Source of the DNA: a virus
Strand: one strand, 5' to 3'
IMG/VR virus record: IMGVR_UViG_3300033148_004150
Span: 1 to 50,965 of that record
Length of the DNA stretch: 50,965 bases
The stretch's first letter is position 1, and each line of letters opens with the position of its first letter. The notes below the pieces were generated by a model. The model saw only the letters and a program-made list of their open reading frames with translations, was not told the DNA's origin and made no database searches. The translations under genes were made by a program, and so were the position numbers. Of the stretch, positions 15,247 to 34,188 are shown piece by piece.

Positions 15247-15250
15247 TACA

Positions 15251-16864: not shown

Positions 16865-16874
16865 GAGCATCACA

Positions 16875-17255: not shown

Positions 17256-17257
17256 AA

Positions 17258-19794: not shown

Positions 19795-20170
19795 ATTAGT
19801 CATTATTATTCTCCCGTTGCCTCCGAAGATATTGCAGCCAAATTGTACAATTGCTACAATTAACAGTCGATTTATGAAAGCGGCAGCAACCAAGAGATAC
19901 AGGCGCATGGCAAGAGAAGCTGTGGAAGCAGAGCAAATTGAGACAATGCCGTGGGGGAAGGCATCAGTCCAAGTTGTATTTTATTTTAAAACTAATCATC
20001 GGCGAGACCAAGATAATGCTATGGGAAGTCTCAAATCAGCTTATGATGGTATTGTAGATGCTGGTCTCGTGGAGGACGATGATTATGAACATATGAAACG
20101 AATATCACCTATATTTAAAATTGATCGTAATCATCCAAGGGTAGAGTTTATCATTGAAAGACTTAAATGA
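19784..20170 (+). CDS. rusA: RusA-like Holliday junction resolvase
   Basis: A 128 aa protein, the usual length for RusA. It has RRDQDNAMGSLKSAYDGIVD and then AGLVEDDDYEHM, the core with the conserved acidic residues that bind metal. The N-terminus LPLPPKILQPN is the usual opening strand. The start overlaps the PrimPol stop by 11 bases. RusA family enzymes cut Holliday junctions as homodimers and help resolve replication and recombination intermediates before packaging. Confidence 0.85.
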   Translation: MTPELVIIILPLPPKILQPNCTIATINSRFMKAAATKRYRRMAREAVEAEQIETMPWGKASVQVVFYFKTNHRRDQDNAMGSLKSAYDGIVDAGLVEDDDYEHMKRISPIFKIDRNHPRVEFIIERLK

Positions 20171-20427
20171 TTCCGATTGAAAAAGAAATACAAATTCGCC
20201 TCATGCTAAAGAAGGGATTATCTACCAGAATGATTGCACGAGAAATCGGGGTAGCACGGCAAACTGTTGAAACAATTAAATCCCTACCGAGGCTCAGAAG
20301 GCGCAGGAAACCATGTACTATACTCCCCAAGAATAGGCCACGTAAATGTTCAACGTGCGGAGGAATGGTGAAAATTTGGCCATGTCTTTTATGCCACCCG
20401 GAAATTGGTGATTACGATGAAAAATGA
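20167..20427 (+). CDS. Helix-turn-helix protein with C-terminal zinc ribbon
   Basis: An 86 aa protein with ATGA overlap. Residues about 5-38 form a helix-turn-helix of the resolvase/sigma type (KKGLSTRMIAREIGVARQTVETI). A basic RRRRK segment follows, then a CSTCGGMVKIWPCLLC Cys cluster that can bind zinc. DNA binding is likely. It may be a regulator of the operon or a recruitment factor. The helix-turn-helix resembles that of the probable small terminase at 33400. Confidence 0.7.
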   Translation: MIPIEKEIQIRLMLKKGLSTRMIAREIGVARQTVETIKSLPRLRRRRKPCTILPKNRPRKCSTCGGMVKIWPCLLCHPEIGDYDEK

Positions 20428-20444
20428 ACCCCAAGGAGAATGCG

Positions 20445-20699
20445 ATGAAACGCAAACCAGTTAATCAACTTATCAAAGAAGCAATGCCAGTGAAGCCAAC
20501 AAAAAATTGGGTAGATAAATTATCTGTTACAGATCGAGTCTATTTGCAGCATGTTGTAGAGGAAATAATTGCAAATCCAGAAGTTGCTTTGAGCGCTGTA
20601 GCTAAGGCCCTCATTGCTGAACTCAAAATTGCTCGTGGTGTTACCACTGTAACTCATACCCTTAGAGAGATGATTCGTAATGCCCAGCAAAAAGCGTAA
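20445..20699 (+). CDS. Hypothetical small helical protein
   Basis: The frame is open from an ATG at 20424, which overlaps the previous stop, but the ATG at 20445 has AAGGAG six bases upstream and is preferred, giving 84 aa. Residues about 25-75 (WVDKLSVTDRVYLQHVVEEI, VALSAVAKALIAEL) look like a small helical bundle similar in style to DNA-binding modules. It overlaps the following gene by 20 bases. No family is recognised. Confidence 0.65.
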   Translation: MKRKPVNQLIKEAMPVKPTKNWVDKLSVTDRVYLQHVVEEIIANPEVALSAVAKALIAELKIARGVTTVTHTLREMIRNAQQKA

Positions 20700-21738
20700 C
20701 GCAAAGAAACTTGTTAATGATGCTCAAATTGCATCTACTGATTTAGCTTTAGCTAAAGCCACTACTGAAGCTGCGCGATGGAAGCGCAAGTGGAAAGATG
20801 CAGTGGCAACGGCTGCGTCCCTGGAGGAACAGATGGAACTCCTGATTGGAATTCAAGGAACTCCAGCTATCCAGAAATTTGAGCAACTCAAAAAAGGGGG
20901 ATCTCGTGGCGTTGCCGTTGTCGTACCGGCTACTGATTGGCATGTCGAAGAGCGAGTGTCAAGGGAAGCTACCAATGGCAAAAATGAATTTAATCTCTCC
21001 ATAGCGGAGGCCAGAATTAAGAGATTCTACCAAAAGATCCTGGAGCTGATTGATTGGCAACGTAACCTGGCACCAGTTAAGGAACTCTGGCATCCGCTTT
21101 TGGGTGATTTAATGTCTGGATATATCCACGAAGAACTCATGGAATCCAATTCATTAAGTCCAACTGAAGCGTGTTTATTCCTACAGGAAATGATTTGCTC
21201 CGGCATTGATCTCTTACGACGCGAAGTGAAATTGCCAATTATCATCCCAACATGCGTTGGCAATCATGGTCGAACAACTCCACGAAAGCGAATTAAAACC
21301 AGCCATAAGAACAGTTACGAATGGCTACTATATATGACCTTAGCGAAATACTACCACGCCAATAAGGCATCTCCCTGGTGGATAGTCGGAAAAGGCTATC
21401 ATAATACCCAAGAAATTATGGGACGGAAGGTTCGTTTTCATCATGGCGATGGACTTCGCTATCAGGGCGGAATTGGTGGTATTTCAATTCCAGTTAATAA
21501 AGCCGTGGCCCAATGGGATAAAGTACAAGTTGTTGATTTTGACATCTTTGGTCACTGGCATACGTTTCTTTCGCACTATCCAAAATGGGTATCGTGTGGC
21601 TCCCTTATGGGATATTCAGAATTTTCTGTGGAGATTAAGGCAGAATTCCAACATCCCACGCAGACCTTCATAGTAATTGATCGTGATTATGGCATGACCT
21701 TGGCAACTCCAATTTTCCTTGAGAAAGCAGGTAAGTAA
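20680..21738 (+). CDS. Calcineurin-like metallophosphoesterase
   Basis: A 352 aa protein with all dimetal motifs in order: ATDWHV (Asp86, His88), VGNHGR (GNH, about 197), FHHGDG, and FGHWHT (GHxH) near 290. The N-terminal 70 residues are a basic coiled coil. Metallophosphoesterases of this type in phages are thought to act on DNA, RNA or nucleotides; the SbcD/Mre11 group cuts DNA ends. The presence in a replication operon fits a DNA-directed activity, but the substrate is not visible from sequence. The start overlaps the prior gene. Confidence 0.8.
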   Translation: MPSKKRNAKKLVNDAQIASTDLALAKATTEAARWKRKWKDAVATAASLEEQMELLIGIQGTPAIQKFEQLKKGGSRGVAVVVPATDWHVEERVSREATNGKNEFNLSIAEARIKRFYQKILELIDWQRNLAPVKELWHPLLGDLMSGYIHEELMESNSLSPTEACLFLQEMICSGIDLLRREVKLPIIIPTCVGNHGRTTPRKRIKTSHKNSYEWLLYMTLAKYYHANKASPWWIVGKGYHNTQEIMGRKVRFHHGDGLRYQGGIGGISIPVNKAVAQWDKVQVVDFDIFGHWHTFLSHYPKWVSCGSLMGYSEFSVEIKAEFQHPTQTFIVIDRDYGMTLATPIFLEKAGK

Positions 21739-22124
21739 TGAATTCTTCTACTAATGAATCTGGTAAAATTAGAACTTTTGAGACTGGTGCTACACGTGAT
21801 ACTGAAGATGGTAAGTTTGATTACGAAGGCTTCTTGAGTTCACTGACACTTCGCAGGTATGCTGAATATATGCACAAACATCGGAAGCAATCCGATGGCA
21901 AGATGCGAGCTAGTGACAATTGGCAGAAAGGTATTCCACTAACTGCCTATATGAAATCGCTATGGAGACATCTGGTTGATCTCTGGACTGCCCATCGTGG
22001 AGATCATTGGCATAGCGGCGATAGGGAGGAAGCTCTTTGTGCCATCATCTTTAATGCTTCTGGATATTTGCATGAATTGCTGAAAGCAAAACCACAAAAA
22101 GGATTAACTAATGATTCCCACTAG
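21738..22124 (+). CDS. DUF5664-type dATP/dGTP diphosphohydrolase-like protein
   Basis: A 128 aa protein overlapping the phosphoesterase stop by one base. The order SDNWQKG, MKSLWRHLVDLW, HSGDREEALCAIIFNASGYL is the pattern of the DUF5664 family, all-alpha MazG-like enzymes that hydrolyse purine deoxynucleotides. The motif ligands W-RH and D-E-A are in place. Together with the MazG-like enzyme at 13463 and the nucleotidase at 22111 it would reshape the dNTP pool. No PurZ gene, which would point to a diaminopurine genome, is present. Confidence 0.65.
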   Translation: MNSSTNESGKIRTFETGATRDTEDGKFDYEGFLSSLTLRRYAEYMHKHRKQSDGKMRASDNWQKGIPLTAYMKSLWRHLVDLWTAHRGDHWHSGDREEALCAIIFNASGYLHELLKAKPQKGLTNDSH

Positions 22125-22782
22125 AATTTTTCTTGATCTCGATGATGTATTGAATCAATTCACAATGTATGCCTTGGCGCATGTTGGATGCAATATTGAT
22201 CCAACGTCTTTCGATAATTTCAAGCCGGAATGGGGCTTTGATATTATCAAGGCAGCTAATGCATTGCACCCAATAGGCCCACAATTTACATTAACTTCAT
22301 TCTGGAGTTGTTTTGGGCGTAATGATTGGGCAAACTTACCAAAATCGGCTGAGTTTGACTTACTATTGGATAGTTGCGAGCGGTTAGTTGGCCGAGACAA
22401 TATCTGTATTCTTACTGCTCCAATTCTTGATCCTGATTGCGCAGCAGGTAAAATAGAATGGATTTACAAACATTGCCCGAAATGGTTGCATCGGCAATAT
22501 CTCATTGGCCCCTGTAAGTATATGTGTGCTCGATCAGATGCTTTATTGATCGACGATTCCGGTGCAAATGTTGATACATTTCGGGAACATGGTGGCCAGG
22601 CAATTCTCGTACCTCGACCGTGGAATAAATCGCATGGAGTTAATGCCATAGAATATCTCAAGCGAGCTTTTACTTGTCTTTACTTCAAGAAAAGCTATCC
22701 TTTCTATCCCAGAGAAATTGATACCTTTCAATATCACCAAGATGATCTTGTTAGATTTATAGCCGAAGGTCACATACCATGA
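22111..22782 (+). CDS. HAD-family 5'(3')-deoxyribonucleotidase-like protein
   Basis: A 223 aa protein. HAD motif I is FLDLDDVLNQF (Asp9, Asp11), motif II ILTAPI near 95, and motif IV LLIDDSGANVDTF near 146. The spacing and the DSGANVD signature are like the NT5C deoxyribonucleotidase family, which removes phosphate from dNMPs. In this operon it probably completes nucleotide salvage or degradation started by the two MazG-fold enzymes. Overlaps both neighbours, which implies coupled translation. Confidence 0.75.
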   Translation: MIPTRIFLDLDDVLNQFTMYALAHVGCNIDPTSFDNFKPEWGFDIIKAANALHPIGPQFTLTSFWSCFGRNDWANLPKSAEFDLLLDSCERLVGRDNICILTAPILDPDCAAGKIEWIYKHCPKWLHRQYLIGPCKYMCARSDALLIDDSGANVDTFREHGGQAILVPRPWNKSHGVNAIEYLKRAFTCLYFKKSYPFYPREIDTFQYHQDDLVRFIAEGHIP

Positions 22783-23102
22783 GTCTTACTCAAGCTCAAA
22801 AATGGCTGCGAACTATTAACTGGCTGCGTCGGGAGTGGCCTGCACGCTATCCAGTGAAAGTAAGATCAATGCCACTCAAGGGTCTTTCTGGAGATAGCTC
22901 CTTTCGGGCACGGCAATTCAGAATCCGAATTAACCGTAAAAAATCATATTCAGAACGAATTGATACAATCCTACACGAATGGGCCCATGTATTAACATGG
23001 TTTGGAGCAGGGCGAGCAGAGGACCACAGCGATGAATGGGGCTTGTGGTATGCGAAGCTTTGTCGTGCTTGGGATAAGTGGAATTATGAGGAGACAAAAT
23101 GA
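22779..23102 (+). CDS. SprT-like zinc metalloprotein
   Basis: A 107 aa protein with HEWAH (66-70), the HExxH zinc-binding and catalytic motif, and EDHSDEWG (His83) as the likely third ligand. The spacing fits the SprT/Spartan-like family, whose larger eukaryotic members cleave DNA-crosslinked proteins. Phage versions are short and uncharacterised. It overlaps the previous and the next gene by ATGA. Protease activity is suggested by the motif but not proven. Confidence 0.75.
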   Translation: MSLTQAQKWLRTINWLRREWPARYPVKVRSMPLKGLSGDSSFRARQFRIRINRKKSYSERIDTILHEWAHVLTWFGAGRAEDHSDEWGLWYAKLCRAWDKWNYEETK

Positions 23103-23628: not shown

Positions 23629-23840
23629 CAGAAAATGACATTCGTAAAGCGGCCAATAAGCTACTTGGCAAAGAAGGCAAGGATTGGAGACTTGAATCAG
23701 GGACCGATGGGCAAAAATATATCATTTTTGAGCAACTTATTCCCGTGTGGAAACGTGTAGATTTTCATTTGCAAGAAAATTTCAGCAATCCGGCGGAAAG
23801 GATACGGGAAGCAATTGATTGGAAACTTTCTTTTTCCTAG
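23625..23840 (+). CDS. Hypothetical small protein, last gene of the replication operon
   Basis: A 71 aa protein behind a GGGGAGGGGGAG ribosome site and overlapping the previous stop. It has a helical N-terminus and a DWRLESGTDGQKYIIFEQL strand pair. Its stop codon TAG shares CTAG with the stop of the convergent recombinase gene (23837-23840), so the two operons end on the same four bases. No terminator is seen at this junction. Confidence 0.65.
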   Translation: MTENDIRKAANKLLGKEGKDWRLESGTDGQKYIIFEQLIPVWKRVDFHLQENFSNPAERIREAIDWKLSFS

Positions 23841-24565
23841 GGGTGTATAGGTTCCAAATTTGGATTACCAGAAATTGGATCAGCCCAATAAGCCTCACGT
23901 TTAATGATCTTCCGAACAGTACGAGCACTCCAGGGCTTACCGCGACAGGGACCAAGATTATTATCAAGCTCTTCGGCAATTTGCTTAGATGAAAATCCAT
24001 TTCTTGAAAGCTTACACGCTTCCAGAATTGCTCTATGCTCTTGTTCACAAAGTACAAGCCGCTTAGGATCATCCGGGTCTTTTCGCCATCCAATCGGGAT
24101 TTTGCCGGTAGTTCGTTCGCCGTTCTTGCGCTTACGATCAAGGCCCTGTTTTGTACGTAGACGAATTCTGTCTCTTTCATAAGCCGAGAAAGCTGCCAGG
24201 ATGTTTTCCAGGAGCTTTCCTTCTGGTGTCGTGCCAATTGGTGAACCATTGGCATATTCGATTGTGGCACCGGCTTCGGCTATCTGTTGGCGGATAGTCA
24301 GGTTCACTAACATATCGCGGGCAAGTCTGTCGCTGCTGTCCACTACGAAAACATTACCGGGCTTCAATCGTTCAAGTGCCTCCTGGAGGCCATGCCGCTC
24401 CAGGAGGCCGCCGGAAATATTCTCATCTGCATAGGGAATCCACCATTTGTAGCCCTTCCGATTGCAATATGCGATACACCGCCCTGCTTGCTTCTCACAA
24501 GAGTCACAGTCCTTGGCGTTTGGGCGAGGGCTAAATCTCGTATAAATGATTGCTTGTTTTGTCAT
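23837..24565 (-). CDS. Serine recombinase (resolvase/invertase family)
   Basis: A 242 aa protein. The N-terminal catalytic domain has YTRFSPRP with the nucleophile Ser12, VDSSDRLARD and AAFSAYERDRIRLRTKQGL, the usual order of the resolvase fold. After it, a short C-terminal part (about 180-235) with RNGFSSKQIAEEL and SARTVRKIIKR looks like a helix-turn-helix, so the length is that of a resolvase with an extended DNA-binding end and not of a large serine integrase. A CDSCEKQAGRC insertion follows the catalytic Ser. It may resolve multimers, invert a segment or integrate; no recognisable repressor or att site was found beside it. Confidence 0.85.
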   Translation of the reverse strand: MTKQAIIYTRFSPRPNAKDCDSCEKQAGRCIAYCNRKGYKWWIPYADENISGGLLERHGLQEALERLKPGNVFVVDSSDRLARDMLVNLTIRQQIAEAGATIEYANGSPIGTTPEGKLLENILAAFSAYERDRIRLRTKQGLDRKRKNGERTTGKIPIGWRKDPDDPKRLVLCEQEHRAILEACKLSRNGFSSKQIAEELDNNLGPCRGKPWSARTVRKIIKREAYWADPISGNPNLEPIHP

Positions 24566-25764: not shown

Positions 25765-26084
25765 TCGTCAGCACAAGGCTCTGACGCATGAACGTTAGCG
25801 TGGGGCCCATTGCAAAGTTTTACTAAGTCTCCAATATCACTTGACGTAAGGCCCCGACGATTGTATCTCTTCAATGGAACATTCAGCTTGCGAAGCCGAG
25901 TGGCTTGTGAACGCACCTTTTCAATACTCCAATCCATTCTTTCGGCTACTTCAGCAATCGAAGAGCACTCTTGATACGTGCTGACGAACTTTCTCAATTC
26001 GTCAACAGTAACACGCGACCGGGGCGTAGTGGTTTTCCGGGGCGTAGTGGTTTTCCGGGATACAGTGGTTTTCCGAGACGACAT
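25731..26084 (-). CDS. Helix-turn-helix protein with repeated basic N-terminus
   Basis: A 117 aa protein behind GGAGG. Residues about 2-22 are a threefold basic repeat K-T-T-x-x-R encoded by 18-base tandem repeats. Residues about 25-75 (VDELRKFVSTYQECSSIAEVAERMDWSIEKVRSQATRLRKL) hold a helix-turn-helix of the kind seen in small phage regulators. The basic arm could contact the DNA backbone. It is probably a DNA-binding regulator, which is inference. Confidence 0.6.
   Translation of the reverse strand: MSSRKTTVSRKTTTPRKTTTPRSRVTVDELRKFVSTYQECSSIAEVAERMDWSIEKVRSQATRLRKLNVPLKRYNRRGLTSSDIGDLVKLCNGPHANVHASEPCADDCVFSALPVRD
26019..26072. repeat. Three 18-base tandem repeats inside a coding region
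   Basis: Copies at 26019-26036, 26037-26054 (identical) and 26055-26072 (three differences). They encode the repeated basic arm of the 117 aa protein. Confidence 0.9.
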
Positions 26085-26133: not shown

Positions 26134-26274
26134 TCATTCTCCCAACGCTGTCAGGAAATCTTCAGCTTGTTCAATTACTTCCCTGGTTTCCTCTTCTAAG
26201 TCGTCCATGTTCAATTCGCAGCAATCCAAAAGGGAGCGAATGATTGTGTAGCTTCTGACTTCGTAGCTTTCCAT
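26134..26274 (-). CDS. Small acidic helical protein (46 aa)
   Basis: A short gene with CAGGAGTTATC before its ATG at 26274. The product starts MESYEVRSYTIIRSLLDCCE, then a strongly acidic helix (MDDLEEETREVIEQAEDFL). It stands alone between the terminator at 26334 and the 117 aa gene. The strong ribosome site and clean fit support it as real. Function unknown. Confidence 0.6.
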   Translation of the reverse strand: MESYEVRSYTIIRSLLDCCELNMDDLEEETREVIEQAEDFLTALGE

Positions 26275-26333
26275 GATAACTCCTGGTGAATAAAAAGTAA
26301 AGAAAAAAACACTTTACTGTGTGGTTCAAGAGA

Positions 26334-26374
26334 AAAAAGACACTCCGCCCGGCAGGGAGAAACCGGGCGAAGTG
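26334..26374 (-). terminator. Rho-independent terminator in the minus-strand array
   Basis: On the minus strand a 12-position stem CACTTCGCCCGG / CCGGGCGGAGTG with a 10-base loop, followed by TCTTTTTT. It lies directly after the 230 aa gene and divides the array into an upper (26.4-31.8 kb) and a lower (23.8-26.3 kb) part. Partial read-through or a second promoter would be needed for the recombinase block. Confidence 0.85.
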
Positions 26375-26387
26375 GGGGGGCGGGAAA

Positions 26388-27080
26388 CTAGGCGTGTTTC
26401 AGGGCGGCTTGCATGGCGGCGGCTATATCTACTCCCTTGGACTCAATTTCAGTCGATCCAAGTTTGGGGCATTCTGACTTGTGAATCCAGAGTGAAAAAG
26501 CACAATCGAATTGACCTACGCCGTCAATATCAAAAACAAAGCGGCGAATCCCCTGCTTCCGAAGGCTTTCAGCGATGACCTTGGGATCATCACTCTGGCC
26601 GGGATAGAATCCATTCTCATATTCTTTGTCGATTTTCACGTATCCATGTTCCCCCAGATCAAGGGCTAGGGTATTGGCGGCTTTCGGGTTGTCCTCTAGG
26701 TATCCCAAATAATCTTCTGGGGCATCTAGTACACAAGTTTGGCAGTATAGGCCCGTTCCATTTTCTGCCCAGTAGCTCGGAGTCCAACCGTAGGAATTAG
26801 GTTGTATTCGGACTAACCCTCCACATCCCATACAAGCACGCCATTCGTCATACCACTCCAATTCTGCCCCTAGTTTTCCCAGAATGACTCCAATACGAGG
26901 CATAAGAAGATCTTCTTTCGGAATGGGCTCGTCCCAACTTCGGGGATTCCAGTCGCCGGTCACAATCAATCCCGATTTCGGATCGGTATACCCTGGTTCG
27001 GCATAGCCATTGAAATGAACCTGAAAATCACACCCCTCGGCATAATTGTAGAGAATCTGTAGTATCGTGCTAGTGTCCAT
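26388..27080 (-). CDS. Conserved-type phage protein with zinc site (230 aa)
   Basis: The ATG at 27080 is chosen because TGGGAG lies nine bases upstream; a longer frame begins at 27122. The protein starts MDTSTILQILYNYAEGCDF, has NWNPRSWDEP, then a four-Cys arrangement (CMGCGG near 85, CQTC near 118) for zinc and a C-terminal alpha/beta domain with FVFDIDGVGQFD. The WNPRS segment and the Cys pairs recall proteins seen in other metagenomic phages. No function is known. It is the last gene before the terminator. Confidence 0.65.
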   Translation of the reverse strand: MDTSTILQILYNYAEGCDFQVHFNGYAEPGYTDPKSGLIVTGDWNPRSWDEPIPKEDLLMPRIGVILGKLGAELEWYDEWRACMGCGGLVRIQPNSYGWTPSYWAENGTGLYCQTCVLDAPEDYLGYLEDNPKAANTLALDLGEHGYVKIDKEYENGFYPGQSDDPKVIAESLRKQGIRRFVFDIDGVGQFDCAFSLWIHKSECPKLGSTEIESKGVDIAAAMQAALKHA

Positions 27081-27084
27081 CGTG

Positions 27085-27444
27085 TTATTCTCCCAGTTGT
27101 GAATCACAGCCCCATAGGTCACAGTCCCAGTACCACTCTGCCCACAGTTTAGCTACTTCTCCGCCCTCTTTCAGTGCCTCCCGAACATACTCAACACCAC
27201 TGGCTGTCAACTCATTTTCCAGCCAGGCCCCGATCTTTTGACCGTCGGAAAGTTCGATTGCGTTCAGGCAGTTCGATCCCGCTGCACAATGTCGCGGACA
27301 ATCTGCCGGTCCGCCTCCGTCCGGGTACGGGCCCTCAGAGGTGAGGATTTCCCCGCAATTTTCGCAGTAAAGATCACCCATGTAAACGTAGACATTCACG
27401 GCTGGCTCCCTTCGGTATATTGTCCACTTTCGGTAGACATTCAC
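27085..27444 (-). CDS. Conserved-type phage protein with Cys/His cluster, duplicated start
   Basis: The GTG at 27444 overlaps the stop of the upstream gene (GTGA), giving 119 aa. A second GTG at 27399 with the same upstream GGGAGCCAGCC site gives 104 aa, because a 45-base stretch with both the ribosome site and the start is tandemly duplicated. The core has MGDLYCENCGE, GPYPDGGGPADCPRHC, SNCLNAIEL, then VEYVREALKEGG. The Cys/His spacing suggests one or two zinc sites. This is a family I know from phages without function. Confidence 0.65.
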   Translation of the reverse strand: MNVYRKWTIYRREPAVNVYVYMGDLYCENCGEILTSEGPYPDGGGPADCPRHCAAGSNCLNAIELSDGQKIGAWLENELTASGVEYVREALKEGGEVAKLWAEWYWDCDLWGCDSQLGE

Positions 27445-27477
27445 GGCTGGCCCCCTTTGGTACATTGTCCACTTTCG
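27388..27477. repeat. 45-base tandem duplication covering a start site
   Basis: Units 27388-27432 and 27433-27477 agree at 42 of 45 positions. Each contains a ribosome binding site and GTG start on the minus strand, and 45 is a multiple of three, so both starts are in one frame. Confidence 0.9.
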
Positions 27478-27623
27478 ATAAGGGCCTCTGCCATGCGTCC
27501 GTAGTGCCCTTGTAGCCTCCAGGCCAATCCACTGTCGATAAGGTATTGGAATCCCTCCACAACCTCTTCGTCAGAAAGGTTGCCCTCTTCATAATTCACA
27601 ACGAACTCTGCTGGATAAAACAT
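27441..27623 (-). CDS. Small conserved-type phage protein (60 aa)
   Basis: The ATG at 27623 follows AAAAGGGAGAGAATT. The protein begins MFYPAEFVVNYEEGNLSDEE and continues VVEGFQYLIDSGLAWRLQGHYGRM, a compact helical sequence that I recognise as a common small phage protein without known function. The upstream extension of the frame overlaps the gene before and is rejected. The end of the gene lies inside the 45-base duplication. Confidence 0.7.
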   Translation of the reverse strand: MFYPAEFVVNYEEGNLSDEEVVEGFQYLIDSGLAWRLQGHYGRMAEALIESGQCTKGGQP

Positions 27624-27658
27624 AATTCTCTCCCTTTTACGTTGTAGATACCCCATGC

Positions 27659-27829
27659 TTAACAGAACGTAACTCGTGCTACCCCTTTGGACAGCGTACA
27701 AATCTGTGGCCGCAAGGCTCTGCCGTTAGTGAAATGCCACCATACTTCGGCAAGCGTGAGCGGACGACGGAGGGTAACGGTAATCTCTTTCCCGCCGCCT
27801 TCGACAATCAACGTGTGTGCAAGGTTCAT
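27659..27829 (-). CDS. Small hypothetical protein (56 aa)
   Basis: A short gene starting at ATG 27829 with AGGGAGAAAGTT directly upstream, the array-type ribosome site. The product has LIVEGGGKEITVTLRRPLTL and then AEVWWHFTNGRAL, a beta-hairpin plus helix pattern. It overlaps the stop of the upstream gene by ATGA. No family recognised. Confidence 0.65.
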   Translation of the reverse strand: MNLAHTLIVEGGGKEITVTLRRPLTLAEVWWHFTNGRALRPQICTLSKGVARVTFC

Positions 27830-27990
27830 AACTTTCTCCCTAACTGAAATTGAGGGTTATAGTAAATAGTCCACCACAGCCACACGAAGCATTTCCTATA
27901 CTTCCCCAAAAAAAGCCCCCCCATAATGCACTCCCACCATATCGGGTCCAACTTGGGACGTAGCAAGCTTTGCGTGCATTTGATTTTCAT
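27826..27990 (-). CDS. Small Trp/Cys-rich protein (54 aa)
   Basis: The start ATG 27990 overlaps the previous stop (ATGA) and is preceded by TTAAGGGAAAAGCC. The product has PIWWECIMGGLFLGKYRK and then FVWLWWTIYYNPQFQL. The stop overlaps the next start by ATGA, so its coding end also carries the next ribosome site. Its end, FQLGRKL, matches FQLREKP of the upstream gene, a trace of a shared duplicated linker. Possibly membrane-associated. Confidence 0.6.
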   Translation of the reverse strand: MKIKCTQSLLRPKLDPIWWECIMGGLFLGKYRKCFVWLWWTIYYNPQFQLGRKL

Positions 27991-28214
27991 GGCTTTTCCC
28001 TTAACTGAAACGTGATTGAAAACTTCCAGAAGTAAAACACAAGTTGCCGATGGGAATGATAGTAGTCGATACTGACTATCCCCAAATCAAACCATTGGCA
28101 ATAACCAACGTGAATAATTCTGAATCTACGCCAAAATGGTCCGCAAGGGTCATAATTGAACTTCACGACTTTCCCCCTCTTGGTGTTTTTTGGAGATTTC
28201 GTTATAGACTTCAT
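27987..28214 (-). CDS. Small basic aromatic protein (75 aa)
   Basis: ATG 28214 overlaps the upstream stop and is preceded by GGAAGAG. The N-terminus is basic (KSITKSPKNTKRGK), then WRRFRIIHVGYCQWFDLGIV and HRQLVFYFWKFSITF, a run of beta strands rich in aromatics. Small aromatic-rich strand proteins of this sort are common in phage accessory regions. Function unknown. Confidence 0.6.
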   Translation of the reverse strand: MKSITKSPKNTKRGKVVKFNYDPCGPFWRRFRIIHVGYCQWFDLGIVSIDYYHSHRQLVFYFWKFSITFQLREKP

Positions 28215-28945
28215 AGCTCTTCCAGTCCGATAGTCTCGCCAGTCAAAAGATGGTAAATGGCCTTTTGCTTGTACTCTTTTCCCTTCTGGACGGCAGTTGA
28301 TTTATAGGCGTAAAGCTCGGTATGGTCAAGGTAGGCGATGTTTTCGTATGGGTGATACCATCCGCCAAAAAAACCGACATTTATCGGATGACGGTCAAGG
28401 TAGGCTTTCAATTCGTCGATAGAAGGTTGACCAGGAAACTTCTCTTCGCACCCTGGAACAGACACAGCCCAAAAGTTACCGGAAACAGACTTACCATATT
28501 CGTCAAGGGTAAAGCCACCTTCGCTCAGCAGCAATCCCTTCGCTACAATAGCAAGCTGCCTATGGGAAAGTTCTTTTGGCCCTGCATTTTCAGCGGGCGG
28601 AGGCAAAGGCTTAGGCGGTGGAGTCGGCACCTTGACCGCCCAGCAAGGCAAGGCCCCGTCAATCTGTTCCTCAGCCAATCGCACTTCTGCATCTGGCGAT
28701 AAACCCACAAGCCGCCGGGCTCGCTGTGCAGTACGGGCATAGACATACGACCAGTGATCTTGTTTGGTACTCATAATTTTGCCTTTTTTGTTATCAGTAG
28801 GAAATACAGTGACATCCTCAACGTAGGATGCCTTGCCAACGCCATTATCAAGATAATCACCACCTTGCTTGATAGCGTCTTGCTCATCTTCGGCATCCCG
28901 AAGAATTACCGATCCGTCGTCAAACCGGACAAGATAACGCTTCAT
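28211..28945 (-). CDS. Array protein: A-domain fused to B-domain plus C-terminal domain
   Basis: A 244 aa protein from ATG 28945 (GAGGAG upstream). Residues about 1-45 (RYLVRFDDGSVILRDAEDEQDA) are an A-domain, as found alone at 31078 and in 30665. Residues about 60-105 (SYVYARTAQRARRLVGLSPDAEVRL, CWAVKV) are a B-domain, as in 29233 and 30165. A proline linker and a unique domain (about 120-244, FWAVSVPGCEEKFPG, GGWYHPYEN) follow. An ATG at 28774 marks the old start of the B-part, so this looks like an in-frame fusion of two array genes. Function unknown. Confidence 0.65.
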   Translation of the reverse strand: MKRYLVRFDDGSVILRDAEDEQDAIKQGGDYLDNGVGKASYVEDVTVFPTDNKKGKIMSTKQDHWSYVYARTAQRARRLVGLSPDAEVRLAEEQIDGALPCWAVKVPTPPPKPLPPPAENAGPKELSHRQLAIVAKGLLLSEGGFTLDEYGKSVSGNFWAVSVPGCEEKFPGQPSIDELKAYLDRHPINVGFFGGWYHPYENIAYLDHTELYAYKSTAVQKGKEYKQKAIYHLLTGETIGLEEL

Positions 28946-28982
28946 AACTCTAGCTCCTCTTTGCATTGTGAGTATTGGCCCC
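28946..28982 (-). repeat. Array linker copy (divergent)
   Basis: Minus strand: GGGGCCAATACTCACAATGC then AAAGAGGAGC before the start at 28945. It matches the linker described at 31297. Confidence 0.6.
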
Positions 28983-29219
28983 TTACGCTTCGATTGCAAC
29001 TGCCGGGCAGTCAAGGGCTATTGCCGGTCCGCCAATGTCGATACCATTCGGCAGTGGATTACTGTCAATATCTACCCAAGCTGGGCATTTCGTACAGTCT
29101 CCCTGTTGGGTTCCGTCTGGATAATTGCTGAATACTGCCTTTTGCCACCTTATGGTATGCCCCCGCTTGCCGGCACTTTTTGTAGCACGAGTTCTCAGGT
29201 CATCTAGTGACTGACGCAT
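28983..29219 (-). CDS. Small Cys-containing array protein (78 aa)
   Basis: ATG 29219 behind AAGGGGGGAAGAATC. The product has KRGHTIRWQKAVF, then CTKCPAWVDIDSNPLPNGID and IGGPAIALDC. The CTKC pair and the last Cys could bind a metal. The NGIDIGGPAIALDC end is familiar from uncharacterised phage proteins. It is separated from the next gene by a 37-base linker. Confidence 0.65.
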   Translation of the reverse strand: MRQSLDDLRTRATKSAGKRGHTIRWQKAVFSNYPDGTQQGDCTKCPAWVDIDSNPLPNGIDIGGPAIALDCPAVAIEA

Positions 29220-29232
29220 GATTCTTCCCCCC

Positions 29233-29730
29233 TTAGCTGATAGGTTTGCGTTGGTATAGACCCGAGCGAAAGTTTTCCAGGTCGGTAATCATGGACAGTA
29301 GAATCATCGGACCCTTGCTGCCCATGTACGAAGTCTCCCCAAGCCACGGGATAATCCGTTCTAAGGTGTAAATGATAAACTTCACTTCGGTATCGGTCCA
29401 ACTTTCGCTATTCCTGCTTAGCAGGCGGCCAATTTCCCGGAAATTTTCAGGTGACAAGTCAGTGATTGACTCTTCACTGCACTCCGAACAAGCTCCCGGG
29501 TAAATGGCTTGCTGGTCGGAAATAGTATCTCCAAGTTGAACTGCCCAGTAGGATAGACCCTCATAAGCTGTTGCCTTTACTAGTTCCACCTTACTATCAG
29601 GCGGAGCATCACAAAGCTTCCTTGCCTTCTCTGCCGTGCTGGCCCAAACGTACATGCACTCCATATAAGATAAAGTCCCGTCTGTTGATACTTCCAGTGA
29701 CCTTACTTTACTGTCAGGTTGGCGGCTCAT
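29233..29730 (-). CDS. Array protein: B-domain, Cys pair, C-domain (165 aa)
   Basis: ATG 29730 behind AAGGGAGAAAGTT, overlapping the upstream stop by ATGA. Residues about 26-66 are a B-domain (YVWASTAEKARKLCDAPPDSKVEL, WAVQL). About 75-90 has CSEC. About 95-160 is a C-domain (SWTDTEVKFIIYTLERIIPWL, GPMILL) shared with the protein of 30165. The B and C parts are therefore found twice in the array in the same order. No enzymatic motif is visible. Confidence 0.65.
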   Translation of the reverse strand: MSRQPDSKVRSLEVSTDGTLSYMECMYVWASTAEKARKLCDAPPDSKVELVKATAYEGLSYWAVQLGDTISDQQAIYPGACSECSEESITDLSPENFREIGRLLSRNSESWTDTEVKFIIYTLERIIPWLGETSYMGSKGPMILLSMITDLENFRSGLYQRKPIS

Positions 29731-29990
29731 AACTTTCTCCCTTCACAATTGCACTCCGGGCAGATTCCAAAGTGAGTTTGCCAGTCCATTACACTATCTC
29801 CGTATCGGTTGAACGATAGCCCGTCTGGAACAGGTTCGATTGCCCGCTCAAAAGACCGAACCTCTTCTGTATCGGTCCACCCGGGTGGGAAGTCGGCGAT
29901 TCCGTCGTATTGGACATCGCAAAGCCTACACTCCAGCCGAATCTTACCTGCATCACTCCAGTAAGGTTGCGATTCAGATTCTTTGCTCAT
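29727..29990 (-). CDS. Array protein: zinc-ribbon D-family, copy 1 (87 aa)
   Basis: ATG 29990 behind AAGGGAGAAAGTT. It has IRLECRLCDVQYDGIADFPP, GWTDTEEV, and CPECNCEG near the end. The two CxxC pairs suggest a zinc ribbon, and the order IRLxCxxC, ADFPPxWTD, THxGxCPxC is shared with 31566-31790. The last codons CEGRKL also encode the ribosome site of the next gene. Confidence 0.65.
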   Translation of the reverse strand: MSKESESQPYWSDAGKIRLECRLCDVQYDGIADFPPGWTDTEEVRSFERAIEPVPDGLSFNRYGDSVMDWQTHFGICPECNCEGRKL

Positions 29991-30168
29991 AACTTTCTCC
30001 CTTCACTTTCTCTACTCTGATTGCACTACCATGCCCTGCATTACGCACCGCAGCAGCAGCTTGCTTTACCGAAGTAGCACGTACAGTCCAACGGCGTTCC
30101 ACAATATCAGGCTTACTTCTACCGGGTAGCAAAACTGAAATTGTAGTTATAACTTCGTACAGACTCAT
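29974..30168 (-). CDS. Small array protein (64 aa)
   Basis: ATG 30168 behind AAGGGAGAAAGCC, chosen over a start 36 bases upstream within the previous gene. The product is MSLYEVITTISVLLPGRSKP, then a basic strand and helix (RRWTVRATSVKQAAAAVRNAG). The layout strand, helix, strand resembles the A-domain (for example 31078), but weakly. It overlaps the next gene by 17 bases. Confidence 0.55.
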   Translation of the reverse strand: MSLYEVITTISVLLPGRSKPDIVERRWTVRATSVKQAAAAVRNAGHGSAIRVEKVKGESYEQRI

Positions 30169-30623
30169 GGCTTTCTCCCTTGTGCTGTTTTCCCAAAAAG
30201 CCAACCAGGGGGGTAGTCGGCTACTTCATTTTCTGCGTTATCCTCCCGGAGGGCTAACATCCCGCGGAAACTTGCTAACTCTATGCCCAGCGGGCCAGTA
30301 ATCCCCGTAGAGGCATACTTTGCCCCCTCTAGCCACGCTATGATCCGTTCCAGAGTATAAATGACAAGCTTCAACTCTGCGTTAGTCCAACTTCCACTTA
30401 CCATGTTTCGTCCGGTGTCAAGTAAGTAGCCGGCCCGATGGAAATCCTCTGGCGATACGTGAGGCTCCGCTGAAATCTGAACTGCCCAGCGGGGCGGAAC
30501 TCCACCTTTCGCTGCCTTCTCCAGTCTTACTTCGCTGTCAGGCGAGACGTGGCAAAGCTCCCTTGCCTTTTCTGCCGTGCTGGCCCAAACGTATGCCCAC
30601 TTCTGGGGTTGTTCCTCGTACAT
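30165..30623 (-). CDS. Array protein: B-domain plus C-domain (152 aa)
   Basis: ATG 30623 behind AAAGGGAGAAAGCC; a longer frame to 30668 would run into the upstream linker. Residues about 8-50 are a B-domain (YVWASTAEKARELCHVSPDS, WAVQI), about 55-130 a C-domain (SWTNAELKLVIYTLERIIAW, ITGPLGIELASFRG). The tail carries DYPPGW, like the ADFPPxW motif of the D-family. It is a clear paralogue of 29233-29730, with the Cys pair lost. Confidence 0.65.
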   Translation of the reverse strand: MYEEQPQKWAYVWASTAEKARELCHVSPDSEVRLEKAAKGGVPPRWAVQISAEPHVSPEDFHRAGYLLDTGRNMVSGSWTNAELKLVIYTLERIIAWLEGAKYASTGITGPLGIELASFRGMLALREDNAENEVADYPPGWLFGKTAQGRKP

Positions 30624-30657
30624 GGCTTTCTCCCTTTGCATTGTGAGTGTTAGTCCC
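30624..30657 (-). repeat. Array linker copy
   Basis: Minus strand GGGACTAACACTCACAATGC then AAAGGGAGAAAGCC before ATG 30623. See the linker at 31297. Confidence 0.7.
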
Positions 30658-30664
30658 GTGAGTG

Positions 30665-31081
30665 TCAACTTCCAAGATAACGCCGAGTCCAGAAGTCGGG
30701 GTCGCCCAGCCTAACGTCTTTCGCTTCCGCAGCCGTGAGTGTGGGCCAATTAAAGCCGTAGTAGTTGCCGGTATCATACAGTACATCCTCTAGCAGTTGG
30801 CAACAGACCGCCTTGCAGGCTGGCTTTATGTCATCAAGTAGCAATTCGTTCACCCGATTACGTAAATCATCAACTGCGATTGTCTTTTGACGGCTCATGG
30901 TTTTCTCCCTTGCAGGTAACATTACTCCCACGCAGTCTATTCTTTCGACGAAATCCAACGCCTTATCGACGCCGAAATCATCAAGATACTCTGCCCCCTT
31001 ACTGGCTGCCTCTTGCTCGTTTTTGGCGTTCCGTAGGATAGATGATCCATTATTGAACCAGATTTGGTAGCAGTTGTTCAT
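30665..31081 (-). CDS. Array protein: A-domain joined to second module, with internal start
   Basis: A 138 aa frame from ATG 31081 (AAGGGAGAAGGCC upstream). Residues about 1-48 form an A-domain (YQIWFNNGSSILRNAKNEQE, DDFGVDKALDFVE). A full array-type ribosome site AAGGGAGAAAACC and ATG at 30898 lie inside the same frame, so a 77 aa product (starting MSRQKTIAVDDLRN) may be made separately. Its second part has CKAVCCQLLEDVLYD and ends DFWTRRYLGS. Either a recent in-frame fusion or a deliberate two-product gene. Confidence 0.6.
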   Translation of the reverse strand: MNNCYQIWFNNGSSILRNAKNEQEAASKGAEYLDDFGVDKALDFVERIDCVGVMLPAREKTMSRQKTIAVDDLRNRVNELLLDDIKPACKAVCCQLLEDVLYDTGNYYGFNWPTLTAAEAKDVRLGDPDFWTRRYLGS

Positions 31082-31296
31082 GGCCTTCTCCCTTCTACAA
31101 TAAGCAATCTGCCCTTAACGTCCCTGATTGCAACTTCGCTTAAACGCTCTATCGACTTAATAGACTCCACTGCCCAGTAGTCAAGTTGCTTGTCTGCCCG
31201 AATGTAAGCTTTGCCTTGGCGTCTTGCATCTTTTTTGTCTTTGGCTTCCCGTGTGATAGCCTTCCCATCATTAAACGTGATTCGATAACGGTTCAT
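31078..31296 (-). CDS. Array protein: stand-alone A-domain (72 aa)
   Basis: ATG 31296 behind CGAAGGGAGAAGGCT. The product has MNRYRITFNDGKAITREAKD, KKDARRQGKAYI, then WAVESIKSIERL. The opening strand RYxxxFxDGxxIxR followed by a helix with AxxxxDAxxQG is the A-domain found in 28945 and 31081. The stop overlaps the next start by ATGA. Function unknown. Confidence 0.65.
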   Translation of the reverse strand: MNRYRITFNDGKAITREAKDKKDARRQGKAYIRADKQLDYWAVESIKSIERLSEVAIRDVKGRLLIVEGRRP

Positions 31297-31330
31297 AGCC
31301 TTCTCCCTTCGTGTTGTGAGTGTTAGCCCC
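31297..31330 (-). repeat. Array linker (reference copy)
   Basis: Minus strand: GGGGCTAACACTCACAACAC followed by GAAGGGAGAAGGCT and ATG. The core ACTCACAA plus ribosome site recurs before the starts at 31790, 31518, 30623 and 28945, and shortened forms with AAGGGAGAAAGYY precede at least six more genes. Confidence 0.8.
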
Positions 31331-31518
31331 TACTTCCGATAGTTTCCACCTAGCCGCGTAAGCATATCGTTGGCCAGATGCCAAGTATCAAGCACCATTC
31401 GTCCCTCATCTTCTGCCAGTGTATTGGCAATACGCCGCAAGTCTGGTATCACAATGTCTTGAACATCTACGGGTCTGCGATGATCGGCACCAGCAACAGT
31501 TTCGATAATTACGGTCAT
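31330..31518 (-). CDS. Small array protein (62 aa)
   Basis: ATG 31518 behind CGAAGGGAGAAAGTT; the upstream extension lies in the linker and is rejected. The product is MTVIIETVAGADHRRPVDVQ followed by a helical region (LRRIANTLAEDEGRMVLDTW). No motif recognised. It is flanked by full linkers on both sides, so it is a clean single cassette. Confidence 0.6.
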   Translation of the reverse strand: MTVIIETVAGADHRRPVDVQDIVIPDLRRIANTLAEDEGRMVLDTWHLANDMLTRLGGNYRK

Positions 31519-31544
31519 AACTTTCTCCCTTCGTGTTGTGAGTG
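31519..31544 (-). repeat. Array linker copy
   Basis: Minus strand CACTCACAACACGAAGGGAG then AAAGTT before ATG 31518. Confidence 0.75.
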
Positions 31545-31565
31545 ACGTACACAAGACCACTAAAG

Positions 31566-31790
31566 TTAAGCGGGTGAGCCAAGTCTGGCATTGGCAAAGT
31601 AGTGTTTCTCGCAACCTTCCTCAATGCACACTGGACAGGCTCCCAAGTGCGTAGCTGGCCGGGAAAGCACTATCTCGGGGATAATATCCTCTGACTGGAC
31701 TTTCCTTACGTCGGTCCATTCGGGCGGGAAGTCGGCAGTGTGCTGAATCCCGCAGAACTTGCATTGTAGTCGAATCTCTTGACGGCTCAT
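31566..31790 (-). CDS. Array protein: zinc-ribbon D-family, copy 2 (74 aa)
   Basis: ATG 31790 behind GAAGGGAGAAAGTT. It has IRLQCKFCGIQHTADFPPEW, TDVRKV, and THLGACPVCIEEG, a paralogue of 29727-29990 with both Cys pairs kept. The C-terminal part (EKHYFANARLG) is repeated in a decayed copy exactly 300 bases upstream at 31870. As first intact gene of the array it lies nearest to the promoter at 31993. Confidence 0.65.
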   Translation of the reverse strand: MSRQEIRLQCKFCGIQHTADFPPEWTDVRKVQSEDIIPEIVLSRPATHLGACPVCIEEGCEKHYFANARLGSPA

Positions 31791-31824
31791 AACTTTCTCC
31801 CTTCACGTTGTGAGTGGTAGCCCC
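31791..31824 (-). repeat. Array linker copy
   Basis: Minus strand GGGGCTACCACTCACAACGT then GAAGGGAGAAAGTT before ATG 31790. Confidence 0.75.
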
Positions 31825-31869
31825 ATCACTCAATTCTACATTACACCTGGTCGGATGCAAGTAAAACTA

Positions 31870-31919
31870 ACGGGCGGGCTAAGCCTGGTATTGGCAAGGT
31901 AGTATTTATCACCACCTTC
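31870..31919 (-). pseudogene. Decayed copy of the D-family zinc-ribbon gene
   Basis: These 50 bases match 31570-31619 at 40 of 50 positions, without gaps. They encode EGGDKYYLANTRLSPP, against EGCEKHYFANARLGSP in the intact gene. The upstream Cys pairs and the start are lost. It is followed by a linker, as a true array gene would be, so it is the remnant of a former first cassette. Confidence 0.65.
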
Positions 31920-31992
31920 CCCATAGCCGATACCAACAGGTTTCTATCACTTGCAGTATTTAGTGATATTGCCTGTCGCCCGTACATAGTCA

Positions 31993-32020
31993 ATTATATA
32001 TCATATTCGCCGGAACACAA
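31993..32020 (-). promoter_or_regulatory. Promoter candidate for the minus-strand array
   Basis: On the minus strand TTGTGT (32020-32015), 16 bases, perfect TATAAT (31998-31993). The -35 box is poor, so it may need an activator. It is the only clear candidate upstream of the array. Confidence 0.45.
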
Positions 32021-32303
32021 GTGAAATCCAGAGTCGTCACTGATGATTATCAGGTGCATGGCCTAGTTATACTGTCCAGGGTGAATTAGATGCGATTATG
32101 CCGATTACGGGTGAATCTGCCAAAATGGCAGCCACCACGTCGCGTCTAACGTCGATTCAGAGGGTCGACCCTGTTTTGATACCCCCAGAATCCGCAGCTT
32201 GTCGTATGCAAGCCGTCCAGTGGCGAAGGGTAGTGATTGTGGTTGAGTGGACGAATGAGCGTGAGGCGTGGCGTGTGGGGCTAGGGCGAGGACAGGAGTG
32301 AAT

Positions 32304-32340
32304 GGAGTGGAGTGAGTGGAGTGAGTGGAGTGAGTGGAGT
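32304..32340. repeat. Nine-base tandem repeat GGAGTGAGT
   Basis: About four units of GGAGTGAGT run directly into the G-quadruplex motif at 32341. Low-complexity; not a CRISPR. Confidence 0.85.
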
Positions 32341-32359
32341 GGGTGGGTGGGGGCGGGGG
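32341..32359 (+). promoter_or_regulatory. G-quadruplex motif
   Basis: GGGTGGGTGGGGGCGGGGG has four G-runs with one-base loops, a very stable G-quadruplex type. It lies in the non-coding control region between the divergent operons. Confidence 0.6.
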
Positions 32360-32463
32360 CTATTGCGCTTGGGTCAGACCCTTGAAGTGCGCGTCGATTT
32401 TGGATTGATATACATTATACTCTTGCAGACCGTTCTGGCCCGACCGACACGGTTAGACCGGAC

Positions 32464-32490
32464 AAAAAACCCTATTTTCTAAGGGTTTTC
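32464..32490. terminator. Bidirectional terminator-like hairpin
   Basis: AAAACCCT / AGGGTTTT, eight pairs with an eight-base loop. The minus strand has a six-T run after the stem, the plus strand four T. It could insulate the array from the iteron region. Confidence 0.55.
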
Positions 32491-32535
32491 GTGCCGTGGG
32501 GGGGCCCCATTACTTCTGAAATCCGAACCACACCC

Positions 32536-32565
32536 CCCGCCCCCGATGACGCCGCCGGGGGCGGG
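32536..32565. other. GC-rich inverted repeat
   Basis: CCCGCCCCCG / CGGGGGCGGG, ten pairs with a ten-base loop. There is no T-run, so it is more likely a structural or protein-binding element than a terminator. Confidence 0.6.
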
Positions 32566-32713
32566 TAGCCCCTCTCTGCCGCCACACGAAAATCTCAATC
32601 CACAACACTATTTACATCTGGAAAACCAGATATAGTAATTTTTGGTGTTATACCACTTTCACACGCGCGCACATTACATGGAGTAAGATGATAAACTAAG
32701 TAATGATTAAATG

Positions 32714-32786
32714 GGTGGTATGTATCCGCTAGGTGATATATATCCCCTAATTCGATGTTGCCATAAATAACGGGTGGGATATACCC
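32714..32786. promoter_or_regulatory. Operator-like repeats GGTGRTATRTATCC
   Basis: Copies at 32714-32727, 32732-32745 (18-base spacing) and a looser one at 32773-32786; a related palindrome TGGT-GTTAT-ACCA lies at 32643-32655. Repeats of this size suggest a binding site for a dimeric regulator. Confidence 0.5.
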
Positions 32787-33121
32787 TACTAACCCGAAGT
32801 AGTTTTGTTGAAAATGATGTTGCAAACAGAAAAAACAACCCCAAATGGTAGGCTACATAAAGCAAAACTCCCTATACATATCGGAGTTATCTGACCTCCC
32901 CCTAGCGATGGAGACAATGTTGCGATGTTGCTAAGGGATCTGAGACCTTAAAGACTATAATCTAATAGGGGGATTGACAAGAAAAAGAACAGACTCCGCA
33001 ACATGCAACATTCTATAAAAAGAGAGAGAGAGAGAGAGAGAGAGTGAGTATATATAGGGAATTATATCTGGCCCGCCCCCCATTAGATGTTATTTGCAAC
33101 ATTCTAACAACAGCCCAACAT
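32754..33121. repeat. Iteron-like ATGTTGC / GCAACAT sites
   Basis: ATGTTGC at 32755-32761, 32817-32823, 32917-32923 and 32925-32931; the inverse GCAACAT at 32998-33004, 33005-33011 and 33096-33102, plus CCAACAT at 33115-33121. Four sites point one way and then three or four point the other, around about 32965. This layout suits a replication origin, a packaging start or a regulatory complex. No protein gene is supported in this stretch. Confidence 0.55.
33021..33044. repeat. (AG)12 microsatellite
   Basis: Twelve AG units next to two GCAACAT sites and an A/T-rich stretch. A site of easy strand opening or slippage. Confidence 0.95.
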
Positions 33122-33184
33122 TCTCTGGGCATTTTAGCCCTCAGAAAATTTTGTTATATATTAAAATGAAAATTCAGAAATCTC

Positions 33185-33213
33185 TTGACATCTATTGGAC
33201 GGCATGGTAAATT
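33185..33213 (+). promoter_or_regulatory. Promoter of the packaging/structural operon
   Basis: Perfect TTGACA (33185-33190), 17-base spacer ending GGCATGG, TAAATT (33208-33213). The spacer end GGCATGG is the same as in the promoter at 8787. Transcription starts just before the structured RNA at 33227. Confidence 0.7.
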
Positions 33214-33226
33214 AGAAGATGAAGTC

Positions 33227-33357
33227 ACGGCGGCAGCGTGGAGTGGACATGCAGCGTTTGTTGTGGTAAGCGTCGATGGGGACTCGCAACCCAGAACCCG
33301 CCCCATCTTGCGAGCATGGGGTTAATCATCGAGCCGGTCTCAAGTCCGGTCCGCCGT
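33227..33357 (+). ncRNA. Structured 5' leader with possible pseudoknot ahead of terminase genes
   Basis: An outer stem ACGGCGG (33227-33233) / CCGCCGT (33351-33357) encloses about 117 bases. Inside, GATGGGG (33275-33281) pairs with CCCCATC (33301-33307), and CTCGCAA (33283-33289) with TTGCGAG (33308-33314): the two stems cross, as in a pseudoknot or a two-state switch. A third option pairs CCCCAT (33301) with ATGGGG (33316-33321). A CCGG...CCGG hairpin follows at about 33334. It may be a riboswitch-like leader or a free RNA; no known class was recognised. Confidence 0.5.
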
Positions 33358-33399
33358 TGGCTTCTTTTTATTATGAAATAGATAAAGAAAAAGAAAACA

Positions 33400-34188
33400 A
33401 TGCATTTAAAAGCTAAACTTAATGATAAACAACGTGCCGAAGTAGTTAAACGATATACTTTTGGCGAAACTCAAGCAGCACTTGCCAAGGAATTTAAGGT
33501 AAGTATTTCGACTATTGGAAAAATTATTAAAAAGGCTAATGCTGGTAGACCTATGAAAACTAAGCAGGGACCGCGAGCTACACCGGCTGCCGCAATAGTC
33601 CAATTCGCTAAAAGAGCGAGATCAATTCTTTGGCGTCAAGAAAGTGGAGTAGTTAAGAAGTCTTATGATAAATGGAAGCAAGCTGTTGAGGAATTAAAGA
33701 AGAATGGAGGTTATACACAACAGCAAGCAATTGTTCAAGTATCAAAAGATTTCCCTTGTTTGAGGCGTTTATTTAAAGAATACAATGTTAGTGATTTCGA
33801 TCCTAATCCAGATTCACATCCGACAGTTGAAAATTGGGGCCAAAAATCTGTAGATGATATTGAATGCGAAGGCAAGAAGCAAAGTCATAGGCAAAATCTT
33901 ATGTGGGCAATTGAAGCTGCCGGAAAATATCTACGGACTGATATTACACCGTCCAAGGCTCCTAATGATGCTGCGTATTACCTTTATCGCCAGGCCATTG
34001 AGGAACCAAAGGACTTCCTTGGGAAATTTACTCAAATAGAATCTCGTGCAGATGATGAAGGGGAAAGGCAGCGCCGCTCCAGAGAAAAGGGGCAACGGAG
34101 TATTAGTGAAATCGAAGAGATGCTTGCTGAACTTGATAATAATTCCGGTGGGATTCCACCTTACACTGGAAATTTAGAGGAGAGTTGA
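33400..34188 (+). CDS. terS: Probable terminase small subunit
   Basis: A 262 aa protein. An N-terminal helix-turn-helix (DKQRAEVVKRYTFGETQAAL, KVSISTIGKIIKKANAGRP) is followed by a basic helical middle and an acidic C-terminal part (SISEIEEMLAELDNN). Position upstream of the large terminase, DNA-binding N-terminus and oligomerisation-type helices suit a small terminase subunit, which selects the viral DNA for packaging. It could also be a plain regulator; the helix-turn-helix is of a common recombinase-like kind. Confidence 0.6.
   Translation: MHLKAKLNDKQRAEVVKRYTFGETQAALAKEFKVSISTIGKIIKKANAGRPMKTKQGPRATPAAAIVQFAKRARSILWRQESGVVKKSYDKWKQAVEELKKNGGYTQQQAIVQVSKDFPCLRRLFKEYNVSDFDPNPDSHPTVENWGQKSVDDIECEGKKQSHRQNLMWAIEAAGKYLRTDITPSKAPNDAAYYLYRQAIEEPKDFLGKFTQIESRADDEGERQRRSREKGQRSISEIEEMLAELDNNSGGIPPYTGNLEES

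Follow-up and report, generated by a model that had tools for sequence, protein, structure and literature searches.

The minus-strand array of small genes in this phage is built from four kinds of homologous protein block in different combinations, and a repeated start leader precedes its genes. We hypothesize, with about even confidence, that the array is an accessory operon of cassettes in which the leader serves at once as starter, recombination joint and fusion linker. Phage genomes are rich in small proteins without relatives, and the origin of these proteins is an open question. Here parts, putative joints and products can be read in a single operon, and relatives offer matching cases, which provides a concrete and testable view of how new small phage proteins may form.

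Genome and operon

The window is the whole IMG/VR virus record IMGVR_UViG_3300033148_004150 (50,965 bases), which represents a mid-sized (about 50 kb), tailed, uncultivated phage. The terminase large subunit is encoded at 34444, and its identity to terminases of named phages is ~24-25% among the matches listed. A Sak4-like annealing protein (10789), a Cas4-domain exonuclease (13766), a helicase, a primase and a serine recombinase (23837-24565) are also encoded. The annotated phage collection contains no DNA match to the region between 25 and 34 kb, which holds the array. For comparison we used 54 records (1.28 Mb) from a large environmental group, found via terminase and primase searches.

The operon comprises 16 small genes on the minus strand, from 31790 to 26388. 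An earlier note on this DNA had counted seventeen genes; that number does lie in the interval, but g17 (26134-26274) is outside the operon because a strong terminator comes after g16. The features, from 5' to 3' on the minus strand, are as follows.

31861..31923, minus: remnant of a third D-type gene (its 3' end), immediately 5' of g01 (local alignment)
31788..31820, minus: long-form start leader before g01; copies before g02, g03 and g05, and a partly degenerate copy at g10
31566..31790, minus: g01, D block, zinc-ribbon-like, 74 aa; homologous to g07
31330..31518, minus: g02, 62 aa; searches for relatives gave none
31078..31296, minus: g03, A block alone, 72 aa (pairwise alignment)
30665..31081, minus: g04, A block plus a second body, joined in frame via the leader, internal ATG 30898 (alignment, leader score)
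30165..30623, minus: g05, B + C, 152 aa (pairwise alignment)
29974..30168, minus: g06, 64 aa, crosses the g07 leader in the second frame (frame reading)
29727..29990, minus: g07, D block, 87 aa (pairwise alignment)
29233..29730, minus: g08, B + C, 165 aa (pairwise alignment, structure model)
28983..29219, minus: g09, 78 aa; relative in record G048, E 1.6e-17
28211..28945, minus: g10, A + B + C-terminal domain, 244 aa, internal ATG 28774 before B (alignment, frames)
27987..28214, minus: g11, 75 aa at most, with GTG 28166 as an alternative start; relative in record G045
27826..27990, minus: g12, 54 aa, stops on the ATGA of the g13 leader (frame reading)
27659..27829, minus: g13, 56 aa, accessory family F0
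27441..27623, minus: g14, DUF7417, 60 aa (Pfam E 3.4e-18)
27388..27477, minus: tandem duplication of 45 bp (93%) covering the g15 leader and start, in frame (repeat listing)
27085..27399, minus: g15, 104 aa, accessory family F6
26388..27080, minus: g16, 230 aa, last operon gene (phrog_35561, 5e-18)
26341..26374, minus: terminator with a 13-bp stem and then a run of T, 3' of g16

From the positions of leader and Shine-Dalgarno sequence, two initially assigned starts were replaced: TTG 29014 of g10 by ATG 28945, and TTG 30668 of g05 by ATG 30623.

Homologous blocks in different combinations

The array proteins (18 in total) were aligned all against all, with 300 shuffles per pair and correction for about 150 tests. 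The A blocks of g03, g04 and g10 are homologous (P 4e-10 to 1.5e-8 from shuffled alignments), as are the B blocks of g05, g08 and g10 (P 3e-7 or lower) and the D blocks of g01 and g07 (P 4e-11). The C block is shared by g05 and g08, in which the combined score of B and C is 202 (null 29 +/- 5). No further homologous pair among the 18 proteins remained after correction. Judged by these alignments, A (three copies), B (three), C (two) and D (two) are true homologues that have been combined differently. The earlier note had placed the same blocks at the same positions, in varied combinations, and had named an all-against-all comparison as the check; the comparison recovered exactly the pairs it claimed, each with a shuffle P of 3e-7 or lower, and chance does not account for the similarities. 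Two further segments, VADYPPGW in the tail of g05 (P 8e-4, uncorrected) and YPGACSECSEES in g08 (P 2e-3, uncorrected), are only suggestive as candidate D remnants.

The duplicated blocks differ at 52-85% of synonymous sites, and dN (0.26-0.50) is well below dS. Purifying selection has therefore maintained both copies. The blocks are constrained and of considerable age, so these are not fast-changing proteins. The description of the system as rapidly changing thus holds for the turnover of gene content, but not for the duplicated blocks themselves.

A repeated start leader

The earlier note did not mention that the array genes share a start leader. The leader (long form CACTCACAAYRYGAAGGGAGAAAGYYATGA) stands before g01 to g08, and less exact copies stand before g09 to g15. 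A 17-mer of it occurs in near-identical copies: with three or fewer mismatches allowed, there are 10 sites in the window against 0.2 in shuffles. All 10 are on the minus strand between 27.6 and 31.8 kb, that is within the array, each ends in a start codon, and none is on another gene of the phage. The leader proper is GAAGGGAGAAAGTTATG, preceded by the A/C-rich stretch CACTCACAAC, and conservation is not confined to the Shine-Dalgarno core but takes in CACTCACAA and also the bases adjoining the ATG. Four matches to the exact leader pattern were retrieved from IMG/VR, none of them repeated and none related, and we judged them to be chance occurrences.

Likeness between leaders does not depend on the family of the body that follows (14.9 of 30 positions match before unrelated bodies, and 13.0 of 30 before related ones). 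In g01 (D), g08 (B + C) and the internal start of g04, not only the leader but also the first four codons, ATGAGCCGYCAA, are common, despite the unrelated bodies.

These properties bear on a rather unlikely explanation, in which the array is an ordinary accessory region where a few tandem duplications occurred long ago, the leaders are strong ribosome-binding sites that have converged, and the two fusions are accidental losses of stop codons. The age of the duplications and the purifying selection on them agree with such a region, as do a number of fusions within frame chance and the lack of strong genome-specific leaders in most relatives (both described below). It does not readily account for ten near-identical 17-mers that are confined to the array, for likeness over 30 bases with a 5' part beyond the Shine-Dalgarno sequence, or for similar junctions in two relatives, G026 and G027.

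Reading through the leader

The three frames of the leader encode GRKL*, with the stop on the ATGA, KGESYE, which is open, and REKVM, also open, which continues in the frame of the gene that follows. The leader is thus free of stops in two of three frames, and an upstream block therefore either stops on the ATGA or reads into the next gene. Five genes (g03, g05, g07, g11 and g12) end on the ATGA in the first frame, and g06 reads through in the second. In g04 and g10, the A block meets the leader in the third frame and continues into the block behind it. The varied order and joining of blocks arise because the frame in which the upstream block meets the leader differs. At the g04 junction the leader scores 13.4, inside the range of true starts, and at the g10 junction the score is 5.0, corresponding to a degenerate copy. 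Both g04 and g10 are thus fusions that run exactly through a gene-start leader with the internal start kept. Two fusions are no excess over the one-in-three chance of frame, and we do not claim selection for fusion.

Two traces of change are consistent with recombination at leaders: the 45-bp tandem duplication of the g15 leader and start, and the D relic upstream of g01, which aligns over 63 bases to the 3' end of g01 with a score of 54 (shuffle maximum 26).

Proposed mechanism

In the proposed model, a cassette would be a small protein block headed by the leader (A/C-rich stretch, strong Shine-Dalgarno sequence, ATGA), and each gene would be strongly translated from this leader. Its repetition could also make the leader a joint: unequal homologous recombination between leaders would duplicate, delete or re-join blocks. 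We infer that the recombination joints are the leaders, and that the reaction is carried out by enzymes of the phage; the Sak4-like annealing protein and the Cas4-domain exonuclease could perform it. Where a leader is read through, it would become a short linker, giving the head-body fusions g04 and g10 with their internal starts, and both the fused and the internal product would be made. If the leader is the joint, the sites of new fusions would be predictable and many array genes would make two products. In the nin region of lambdoid phages, conserved short boundary sequences at gene borders have been proposed as recombination joints among small genes. As an argument against a role as joint, the sameness of the leaders could be held by selection for translation.

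Comparison with known systems

In the passages cited, the start-associated sequences (SAS) of Cluster K mycobacteriophages are over-conserved repeats of non-structural genes, placed at the ribosome-binding position (PMC3203893), and SAS-type sequences are also described in Cluster EF Microbacterium phages (PMC7302621). Like SAS, the leader is a short over-conserved repeat at the ribosome-binding position, a few bases from start codons that are mostly ATG. It has one orientation, stands only before small non-structural genes of different families, and is missing from the other genes of the phage. The Cluster K consensus, GGGATAGGAGCCC, is not found in the leader, which reads GAAGGGAGAAAGTTATG. 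With the same placement and a different sequence, the leader is therefore SAS-like in its working and does not belong to the SAS family. Extended SAS (ESAS) add 17-bp imperfect inverted repeats just upstream, where the leader has its A/C-rich stretch instead; the repeat listing of the window contains no inverted repeats of the ESAS kind at the leader. In addition, the leader is tied to block duplication and read-through fusions, for which the cited SAS passages contain no description.

The likeness to SAS raises the alternative that the leader is a regulatory site, at which a bound phage or host factor switches the translation of the whole set, with the shuffling left to illegitimate recombination. 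Conservation beyond the Shine-Dalgarno core and next to the ATG would be expected of such a site, and SAS show equal placement and over-conservation in the cited part of the Cluster K study (PMC3203893). We consider this reading plausible but unlikely: taken alone it leaves the leader-coded fusions, the tandem duplication of a leader and the shared first codons unexplained, and ESAS-like inverted repeats are lacking. Regulation of this kind is compatible with the cassette explanation.

Recombination between short repeats has been proposed to explain the gain and loss of a small gene in Cluster O mycobacteriophages, in which the gene lies between short direct repeats and genomes without it carry a single repeat (PMC4351075, in the passages cited). 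That 17-bp repeat is a dyad untied to gene starts, and fusions of protein blocks are not described in those passages. Domain mosaicism, in which one protein fragment is found with varying partners among related phages (PMC10684548), also applies to the array, where homologous blocks are joined to unrelated partners. According to the cited passages, it mainly concerns tail, lysis and replication proteins, whereas here the proteins are tiny and the junction is the gene-start leader. We found no description of the combination of start leader, joint and read-through linker in the literature, as represented by these passages.

Related phages

No significant relatives of the A-D blocks were found in IMG/VR (searches with the g08 protein, a B profile and an A profile), among annotated phages, or in the 54 fetched records with unfiltered profiles. 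Searches with g10 match elsewhere by its C-terminal domain only, which occurs without A and B in record G006 and alone in phage phiKSUM.

Many members of the group have a similar set of small genes in the accessory region next to the terminase, with shared families in differing combinations. The families of g13, g14, g15 and g16 are present in 10, 7, 5 and 4 genomes, respectively, the window included. Half of the predicted open reading frames in these regions are unique, a count that includes spurious frames from mechanical gene calling. Across 33 regions, 7 of the 13 intragenomic paralogue pairs are in the window. In the accessory regions, leaders are more alike within than between genomes (the observed value was reached in 0 of 300 permutations, and in 21 of 300 for a structural-gene control), and strong genome-specific leaders are found in 3 of 18 tested regions (G026, the window and G033).

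G026 and G027 carry one head (E 5e-6 and 2e-6) on different bodies, with in-frame leader-like sequence between head and body, and the body of the G027 protein is free-standing in G026 with its own leader ahead. The relatives thus show other orders and fusions, and not the single fixed order without fusions that the earlier note had set against its own idea; its proposal of duplication, in-frame fusion and recombination of blocks draws support from these cases, from the paralogy within the array and from the two leader fusions. As a tentative extension, the leader may act across the phage group as a joint comparable to those in exon shuffling, with each junction able to give both a fusion and a free body. 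The data contain no close relative of the array, and no exchange endpoint exactly on a leader was seen between close relatives; the sole indel of the near-identical G005 and G051 falls in a decayed gene.

That indel (G005 4620-4800, G051 10225-10345) separates phages that are 99.5-99.6% identical and lies within a decayed copy of the g16 family, which shows that gene loss is ongoing in the accessory region. In an accessory protein of G042 (2549-2998), the first 11 residues, MGTTTQPDWEL, match the start of one G033 gene and the rest matches another (G033 accessory region 2337-3399), a further case of an exchanged gene start.

The serine recombinase and the replication block

In the window, as in several relatives, a resolvase-domain recombinase is encoded at the far end of the minus-strand gene set. 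This enzyme could in principle shuffle the cassettes in a programmed, shufflon-like manner. We regard such diversification as highly improbable: the array repeats are direct, imperfect and located on start codons, the blocks are old and constrained, several relatives have no recombinase match, and no strong inverted repeats were found at the replication-block boundaries tested, those of the window.

The orientation of the replication block, from sak4 to p22779 (window 10789-23102), was compared in the window and in G007, G008, G012, G013, G027, G033, G034, G039, G045, G047, G048 and G053. The block has the direction of the terminase in the window, G013, G047 and G048, and the opposite direction in G007, G008, G012, G027, G034, G039 and others. 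An inversion of ~12 kb has occurred in this phage group. The serine recombinase keeps with the minus-strand accessory genes whichever way the replication block points.

Structure models and possible function

The genes with A-D blocks have no Pfam or PHROG match, no significant fold match, and no match in PADLOC, a library of defence and not of counter-defence families. The earlier statement that the proteins lack a recognised motif is accurate for these genes, but g14 (DUF7417, Pfam 3e-18) and g16 (phrog_35561, 5e-18) do belong to known families. A homing or enzymatic function was rejected for lack of a family match. In the model of g08 (mean pLDDT 64), B is beta-alpha-beta-beta and C consists of three helices; Foldseek matches of this model to LOV-histidine kinases and meganucleases were discarded as low-score noise. 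The array proteins may be early host-directed factors, but these searches gave no positive evidence for the anti-host or anti-defence role that the earlier note had suggested.

The model of g10 (mean pLDDT 51, about 70 for A) has T7 Gp2 (probability 0.95, TM 0.65 by target, E 0.64) and the RNA polymerase interacting protein YkzG as its top PDB matches, with E-values of 0.6-0.8. If the A block were a Gp2-like RNA polymerase inhibitor domain serving as a shared docking head, the array would be a kit for transcription takeover. The modelled strand-strand-helix-strand order of A is in line with this idea, and the g08 model, which has B and no A, fails to retrieve Gp2 or YkzG. The E-values (0.6-2) are nevertheless at chance level, the fold is small and simple, the model is weak and there is no Gp2 sequence match, which makes this assignment doubtful.

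Additional observations

A 7.7-kb contig (L118, JAOZHP010000014.1) in a Bathyarchaeota MAG encodes a terminase 61% identical to that of the window phage. The contig is either misbinned or a clue to the host; mis-binning is likely, and the contig was not counted as evidence on the host.

The gene g18 resembles a D5-like transcriptional regulator (phrog_323) and contains three 18-bp tandem repeats, SRKTTTPRKTTTPR (26019-26080). In G012, a 96-bp intergenic repeat (47037-47132 and 47582-47676, 84%) precedes two accessory genes and holds a G+C-rich stretch with apparent dyad symmetry. A stretch of ~1.5 kb (31930-33400) that separates the divergent array from the terminase side of the window is without convincing genes; it contains a 9-bp tandem repeat, GAGTGGAGT (32296-32346), and a CT-rich run near 33020-33045, and is a possible promoter or origin region.
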